From assembly GCA_018675995.1 (NCBI GenBank), contig JABGWZ010000071.1:1-43062 (forward strand): a stretch of 43,062 nt of DNA, given 5' to 3'. This stretch comes from Opitutia bacterium. GTDB lineage: Bacteria; Verrucomicrobiota; Verrucomicrobiia; Opitutales; Seribacteraceae. A model generated the notes under the pieces. The model was not told where the DNA came from. It saw nothing but the letters and a program-made list of their open reading frames with translations, and made no database searches. Positions within the stretch are counted from its first letter, which is position 1. Every line of letters starts with the position of its first letter. This document shows positions 32,364-32,859 of the stretch, piece after piece. The translations under genes and the position numbers were made by a program.

Positions 32364-32606
32364 TCAAGCAGCCAACTTGGGTGTTGCATTAAGTAGCTTG
32401 TGAAAAAGATCATCCCTTCGTTTTCTGGCTTCCGATAAAATTCGTGTTTTCAAAGATTGCCTTTTTCGCTCAGCAGTTACCGGGGTTGGGTAGATGGTGT
32501 AATGTATCCACCAAGTCCCATTATTATTCCACAGGTGGTGATTCAGGTTATCCTTGTCTATTCGAAGAGCTAACTCTTCAAATTCATTGTATGTACTTAT
32601 TTTCAT
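32364..32606 (-). CDS. small protein resembling a stand-alone integrase arm-type DNA-binding domain
   Basis: The 80-residue product (NNNGTWWIHYTIYP ... AERKRQSLKTRILSEARKRRDDLF) follows the pattern of the N-terminal arm-binding domain of tyrosine recombinases: G-x-W-x-hydrophobic strands, basic K/R, a S-L-x-T turn, then a helix with EARxxRD. There is no catalytic domain in the neighbourhood. The ATG directly abuts a strongly folded upstream region. It may bind nucleic acid, perhaps its own leader; that is inference. A longer plus-strand ORF overlaps it but runs through the folded region and looks like a shadow. Confidence 0.55.
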   Translation of the reverse strand: MKISTYNEFEELALRIDKDNLNHHLWNNNGTWWIHYTIYPTPVTAERKRQSLKTRILSEARKRRDDLFHKLLNATPKLAA

Positions 32607-32771
32607 GGAGCGTTTTCCTTTCGGTTAACGCACTTTCCCTAGCATTGGTAGGGGAGTGCTTATTTTCGGTTGTGCCAAAACCGCGCATCCCGGTTAAATC
32701 GACCTTGTACCACCGTAGCAGCTCTCCTGCTCGGTTGGTAACCTACATTAGGTTGTCTTTGGATACGGTAA
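32607..32771 (-). ncRNA. candidate structured leader RNA upstream of the arm-like ORF
   Basis: Read on the minus strand, the leader folds into successive hairpins. (1) 32740-32754, AACCTA/TAGGTT. (2) 32708-32740, 13 bp with two single-base bulges around loop GAGAG (inner stem AGCAG/CTGCT). (3) 32679-32695, AACCG/CGGTT. (4) 32630-32659, GCACT/AGTGC with inner CCCTA/TAGGG. (5) 32610-32631, GCGTT/AACGC with an AA/AA internal loop and a CC-GAAA-GG cap, a GNRA tetraloop on this strand only. The last hairpin ends 4 nt from the ATG. AACCG at 32679-32683 (plus strand) can also pair with CGGTT at 32667-32671, so two folds compete. No known riboswitch consensus is recognised. Confidence 0.45.
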
Positions 32772-32778
32772 GTGGCTA

Positions 32779-32806
32779 AATATAAAAGAACAGAAATTTT
32801 ATTCAA
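32779..32806 (-). promoter_or_regulatory. candidate promoter for the structured leader
   Basis: On the minus strand TTGAAT (32801-32806), a 16-nt spacer and TATATT (32779-32784) fit sigma70. Transcription would begin near 32771, just before the first hairpin, consistent with a leader of about 165 nt. Confidence 0.4.
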
Positions 32807-32859
32807 AGGATTTTACATTATTTTGGCAAACTTTCTTTGTGTCATAAAATAGCGACCTT

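Follow-up and report, generated by a model that had tools for sequence, protein, structure and literature searches.

A minus-strand leader RNA that abuts an 80-residue open reading frame (ORF) in a 43,062-nucleotide stretch of Opitutia bacterium DNA (the window) is very probably a divergent SAM-I/IV riboswitch that switches a small arm-domain protein OFF. The assignment is built on homology, architecture, covariation, a conserved pocket and gene associations, and it largely explains a finding that is real. The RNA class itself is known; what is new, and surprising, is its conserved target, a stand-alone arm-type (predicted β3–α) protein. A first-pass annotation of the letters had recognised no known riboswitch and had suggested a new cis-regulatory RNA, an autoregulated leader or a piece of a small mobile element. 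The leader is indeed cis-regulatory, but its SAM-I/IV architecture, ligand-site nucleotides and Rfam similarity place it in an existing class.

Leader architecture and class assignment

The leader (32607-32771, minus strand) folds with a minimum free energy of −53.4 kcal/mol (z −2.69), and 0 of 200 dinucleotide shuffles were as good. Folded as the plus strand, this stretch scores almost equally (z −2.34); folding energy by itself therefore cannot tell the strands apart, and both the choice of strand and the case for the leader rest on conservation. A folded RNA that beats its shuffles on the conserved strand bears out the initial observation. The five hairpins drawn at that stage correspond to P2, P3 (the "long" bulged stem), P5, H6 (32659-32630) and H7 (32631-32610), whereas three elements had been missed: P1, the helix that closes the junction of stems; P4, which is short; and the pseudoknot that the P3 loop forms with H6. 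The last stem, placed 4 nt from the ATG, is H7, whose end lies 3 nt from the ATG at 32606. The GAAA-capped element CCGAAAGG (32624-32617) is not a conserved GNRA hairpin because its stem has 2 bp, it overlaps the Shine-Dalgarno (SD)-like AAAGGA and it is absent from the sister genus g2. For the suggested promoter before the first hairpin there are two candidates, the one listed in Table 1 and ATGACA-N17-AATAAT.

Table 1. Features of the leader and its target gene, with the palindromes at methionine-cycle genes of the same genome
Feature	Position	Strand	Basis
Leader RNA	about 32771-32606	-	upstream of the 80-aa ORF
SAM-I/IV-type aptamer P1-P5	32651..32771	-	RF01725, 30.7 bits; model R1, 113.5 bits; covariation
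P1 5' strand CGUAUC	32762..32767	-	A and U at SAM-I positions A6 and U7 (PMC3764141)
J1/2 CAAAGA	32756..32761	-	GA at SAM-I positions G11-A12; AGA invariant in alignment A3
P2 AACCUA/UAGGUU	32740..32754	-	undivided, no kink-turn; 6/6 pairs with double-sided changes
P3 with SAM pocket CCAACC...GGUGG	32709..32739	-	C44, A45, U57 and G58 equivalents
PK-2 P3-loop strand GGAGAGC	32721..32727	-	GGAG pairs with CUCC in 32653-32659; swap test on relatives
P4 hairpin GGU...ACC inside the junction	32692..32704	-	82% paired, partly misaligned between groups
P1 3' strand GAUGCG	32684..32689	-	A87 and U88 equivalents
P5 hairpin CGGUU...AACCG outside the P1 junction	32667..32683	-	97% paired
H6 hairpin	32630..32659	-	5' strand GCACUCC is the downstream PK-2 strand; PK-2 and H6 mutually exclusive
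H7 hairpin	32610..32631	-	encloses SD-like AAAGGA (32621-32616) and bases before AUG; 2 nt in common with H6
Stand-alone arm-type (predicted β3–α) protein, 80 aa	32364..32606	-	homologues; weak DUF6538/Arm-DNA-bind_3 matches; AF2 model
Candidate sigma-70 promoter TTGCCA-N17-TTGAAT	32801..32829	-	putative; similar spacing by eye in L173, L180 and L171
TTATGACAC box	32839..32847	-	upstream of the leader promoter, conserved in many relatives; candidate regulator site with a putative mechanism
Palindrome at metK	C7:2069-2088 (L249 1501-1520)		
Palindrome at metF	C238:4825-4844 (L195/L250)		
Palindrome at metH	C147:5860-5879 (L251)		

At the gathering threshold, an Rfam search of the whole window found only a tRNA. 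The permissive search matched the leader full-length to the SAM-I-IV model RF01725 (30.7 bits, E 0.0059), 10 bits short of the gathering cut-off of 41.1 bits. Arm-ORF leaders from other classes of the phylum do exceed this cut-off (41.6 bits at locus L172 and 43.7 bits at L173). By these scores the leader family qualifies as RF01725, and the window copy does so through its homology with that family. RF01725 matches at E ≤ 0.01 occur in 14/177 genomes of the order, and the canonical SAM-I model (RF00162) passes its cut-off in 0/223.

SAM-I/IV riboswitches are described as having an undivided P2, no PK-1, and P4, P5 and PK-2 present (PMC6890682); their P2 internal loop is absent and they are mostly metagenomic (PMC2864571). 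The layout in the window equals these descriptions, which supports the class. With RF01725, typically from marine metagenomes, the leader shares P1, the undivided P2, P3 with its CCAACC/GGUGG pocket, P4, P5 following P1 and a PK-2 joining the P3 loop to the 3' tail; it differs in the lower score of the window copy, a J1/2 longer by 2 nt, a short PK-2 (undetected in group f19) and an arm-domain protein rather than a methionine gene as target. It has in common with SAM-I (RF00162) the ligand-contact nucleotides, the P1/P3 core and, in relatives, the use of the P1 5' strand as antiterminator strand, but lacks the P2 internal loop, apparently also lacks PK-1, and carries an extra P5 and PK-2. SAM-IV (RF00634) also has P5 and PK-2 outside P1, whereas its P2a/P2b, its PK-1 and its lack of P4 (PMC6890682) set it apart from the undivided P2 and the P4 observed here.

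The first-pass annotation had proposed to collect homologues of the ORF, align their leaders and look for covariation, and this check succeeds. When the SAM-I/IV structure is imposed on 24 leaders, 93% of cells pair, double-sided changes occur in 13/28 pairs (6.5 in shuffles) and the covariation score is 0.230 as compared with 0.134 for shuffled alignments and at most 0.055 when partners are slid. The covariance model R1, built on these 24 leaders with the window sequence among them, matches in 28/223 genomes, usually as one copy per genome. RNAalifold recovered P3 alone from the mixed f13/f19 alignment A2, in which P2 and P4 are probably misaligned.

The SAM-I conserved or contact positions are A6, U7, G11, A12, C44, A45, C47, G56, U57, G58, A87 and U88 (PMC3764141), and the window letters are identical at all of them. 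The equivalents of G11, C44, A45, U57, G58, U7 and U88 are invariant or nearly so in alignments A3 and A2, whose sequences were picked partly with the motif; as the alignments were anchored on CCAACC...GGUGG, the invariance of those letters is partly due to selection. Every f1 locus with a full upstream stretch carries CCAACC...GGUGG or the close variant CCAGCC (e.g. L038). In genome G418 (f73), the leaders of three arm ORFs (L169, L170 and L179) carry CCGACC or CCAAACG where others have CCAACC, and their P1 (GCGUGA) looks unusual by eye; this may be a variant of the pocket.

Pseudoknot and expression platform

The P3 loop is complementary, in most groups, to a strand just 3' of P5, and the sequence of the pair differs by group (GAGAGC/GCUCUC, AGGAGU/ACUCCU, CGGGAGCG/CGCUCCCG, CUGGAAG/CUUCCAG and CGGGAU/AUCCCG). 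We compared own with swapped tails for 33 distinct loops: outside f19, 0/10,000 permutations reach the observed complementarity, and the f19 leaders gave no PK-2 signal in this swap test. The window PK-2, GGAG/CUCC, has only 4 continuous pairs. H6 covaries (0.340 versus 0.237 shuffled). The complementarity of H7 is conserved, and no covariation of H7 beyond shuffles was found. When the PK strand is blocked in a folding of the tail, the AACGC that precedes the AUG becomes inaccessible (from 0.6-0.8 unpaired to below 0.1).

In the classical antiterminator or anti-sequestor logic, the ligand closes P1, the complement is freed and expression is turned OFF. Most f13 leaders and those of several other classes possess CCUGAUGC(G), which is complementary to the P1 5' strand GCAUCAGG, either within an intrinsic terminator or within a second element ahead of the start. 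In most f19 leaders, a pre-start UCGUGAUGCG pairs with CGCAUCACGA, and locus L094 retains the pairing through a compensating change. Expression platforms thus look like OFF switches both in relatives, with terminators and pre-start pairings with the P1 strand, and in the window, with mutually exclusive hairpins at the start codon. At two loci of genus g3 (L029 and L033), an intrinsic terminator-like hairpin and a T run are inserted in the H6 loop.

The genus of the window appears to use a platform other than P1-strand pairing, for which we put forward a PK-2/H6/H7 OFF mechanism as a model rather than as a result, since H7 does not covary beyond shuffles. Transcription would start just upstream, and the nascent RNA would fold P1 to P5. 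At high concentrations, S-adenosylmethionine (SAM) would bind the P1/P3 pocket and stabilize P1 and PK-2, in which the P3-loop GGAG pairs with CUCC. PK-2 would then capture the H6 5' strand and block H6, allowing H7 to sequester the Shine-Dalgarno region together with the nucleotides that precede the AUG, so that translation would be OFF; at low SAM, H6 would form and weaken H7, and the protein would be made. The P1 5' strand may bring relatives to the same outcome in either of two ways: termination, in which it is set against the strand of a terminator, or base-pairing to an element before the start.

The arm-type protein and its association with the RNA

The 80-aa ORF is real and conserved, with a homologue in 82/273 genomes of the order, in 60/289 genomes taken from the phylum and on eight named contigs of Opitutia/Verrucomicrobia; some genomes have 2-5 homologues. 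Their consensus reads NHHLWNNNGTWW.HYT...T..R.R.SL.T..l..AR.RRD. The AF2 model comprises three strands and a C-terminal helix (E25-28, E31-39, E46-51 and H57-74) with a mean pLDDT of 78, rising to 87-94 in the core. Among 50 homologues, Pfam returned weak matches to DUF6538 in 46/50 and to Arm-DNA-bind_3 in 5/50; the best homologue reaches E 7.1e-6, and the window protein scores 12.2 bits against DUF6538, under the curated cut-off of 27. The earlier description of the ORF as arm-domain-like therefore holds weakly, by Pfam and by the β3–α model, and falls short of the Pfam curated cut-off. A PDB sequence search with the protein returned nothing, and a fold search against the PDB gave nothing significant, the best non-significant match being a dsRNA-binding Dicer complex. 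The protein shares with the arm-type/DUF6538 N-terminal domains of tyrosine recombinases the modeled β3–α fold, a basic C-terminal helix and the weak Pfam matches, but it stands alone at 80 aa, has no catalytic domain, occupies a single conserved locus and has no significant PDB match.

Upstream of the homologues, we observed a common element composed of P1 (G)CAUC, a short J1/2 with GA, P2, CCAACC, the P3 hairpin, GGUGG, usually P4, and GAUGYG closing P1; the pattern matched at 98/142 fetched loci (duplicates included). Most arm-ORF homologues, both throughout the order and in further classes of the phylum, have the RNA upstream. It is missing from most genomes of f29 (probably, we assume, Akkermansia and relatives), from f4, from one f10 copy and before extra paralogues. 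The f29 arm ORFs without riboswitch include those at L156, L157, L166, L167 and L187-L189, several of which lie downstream of a ribosomal protein L28-like gene.

This strong link between RNA and protein could also arise if the leader were the binding site through which the arm protein represses its own translation, and the protein is small and basic, with the Dicer complex as its closest fold match. We consider such autoregulation, as proposed in the first pass, very unlikely: copies of the RNA lie at loci lacking the protein gene (L117, L127, L128 and L130), copies of the protein gene lie at loci lacking the RNA (most of f29, and f4), and the conserved core is a SAM pocket rather than a protein site.

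Arm domains are typical of tyrosine recombinases. Together with the 2-5 ORF homologues of some genomes, this would fit a small mobile element, a repeat or an integrase remnant, with a structured end. We reject this further early suggestion as extremely improbable. The gene is present as a single copy in its own genome and its neighbors are conserved in the genus (a quinone-oxidoreductase-like gene upstream and a glucuronyl-esterase-like gene downstream). No match was detected in phage records by a distant DNA search or in plasmids by a protein search, two relatives being located in viral contigs, and the leader displays riboswitch covariation.

Under the riboswitch assignment, the likeliest role of the arm protein is that of a nucleic-acid-binding regulator, probably of SAM or methionine metabolism. 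In our literature search, no paper connected a riboswitch with an arm domain, none mentioned DUF6538 and none joined a SAM riboswitch, Verrucomicrobia and a transcription factor.

The TTATGACAC box lies ~9 nt upstream of a -35-like TTGNC and is conserved ahead of the promoters of arm ORFs from several families and classes. It is also found at the riboswitch-less L056 and before the second riboswitch copies L117 (as TATGACAC), L127 and L128. With the -35-like spacing, it occurs once in its own genome. We rejected the box as a regulon operator, as other genomes of the order have 0-4 occurrences each, a number comparable to that of the reversed control, and no regulon emerged.

Ligand and methionine-cycle genes

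Methionine and SAM genes are the usual targets of SAM riboswitches. Methionine genes are not adjacent to most homologues of the arm gene. Two genomes of high estimated completeness contain a riboswitch–arm ORF–metK operon in which the arm ORF overlaps the metK start (L096 and L079; TIGR01034 metK equivalogs at 460 and 474 bits, respectively), and a SAM-I/IV element above the Rfam cut-off precedes a homocysteine S-methyltransferase gene in G004, a genome of the same order (L130). From these gene associations and the pocket letters, we infer that SAM is the ligand.

Several further arrangements were observed. The operon at L079 (1759-3701) runs riboswitch–arm–metK–MoxR-like AAA ATPase. In genus g3, second riboswitch copies precede a MoxR-like ATPase in G218 (L127 1399-5) and, in G131 (L128 1600-644), a MetK-like frame that has no N-terminal domain and may be a fragment. 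Another second copy, on contig C84 of G037 (L117 708-1466, minus strand), precedes a 253-aa ORF for which Pfam gave no match. Some f29 genomes that lack the RNA have the arm ORF placed after a gene for a Cys/Met PLP enzyme.

A main target other than a methionine gene and a J1/2 longer by 2 nt than that of SAM-I could indicate a SAM-I/IV fold with a pocket re-tuned to S-adenosylhomocysteine, decarboxylated SAM or a polyamine. There is precedent in the spermidine riboswitches, which descend from SAM-I and have changed J1/2 and the P3 internal loop, both of which contact SAM (PMC10853860). Neither alteration is seen in the window leader, in which the GA of J1/2 and CCAACC/GGUGG are kept, and related copies adjoin metK and homocysteine S-methyltransferase; a re-tuned pocket is therefore unlikely, and SAM is the ligand we favor.

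In the genome of the window, a 20-bp palindrome CAACATATCATGATATGTTG lies upstream of metK, metF and metH, with 2 mismatches at metH and 0 occurrences of the reversed control. No riboswitch was found at these three genes (L249, L195 and L251). Of the genomes of this genus that were inspected, most have similar palindromes at metF or metK. Among the fetched loci, the palindrome is missing from metF and metK of G003 and metK of G002, where no arm gene was detected in either genome, and, although an arm gene is present, from metK of G004 and the arm–metK operons of G188 and G164. As it is missing both with and without an arm gene, these loci are uninformative on a link between the two.

The genes metK, metF and metH are among the core members of SahR regulons (PMC4239095), and a SahR-like factor or the arm protein could therefore bind the palindrome. 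The single palindrome common to these genes resembles SahR/SamR-type regulation of the SAM cycle, from which the leader departs in that it does not itself contain the palindrome. We tentatively suggest, as a possibility short of an even chance, that the arm protein is a previously unrecognised regulator in Verrucomicrobiota, controlled by the SAM riboswitch, and relays the SAM signal to methionine-cycle genes, for example through the metK/metF/metH palindrome. If so, the riboswitch would act in trans through a stand-alone recombinase-type DNA-binding domain.

Our data indicate that a SAM-I/IV lineage, much of which scores under the present Rfam thresholds, has remained coupled, across the phylum's classes, to a small protein with a modeled recombinase-type arm fold, and the leaders supply sequences to extend the Rfam model. 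The riboswitch link is the first functional lead for the arm-protein family. Combined with the finding that no canonical SAM-I was detected in the order, it points to an unrecognised step in SAM homeostasis.
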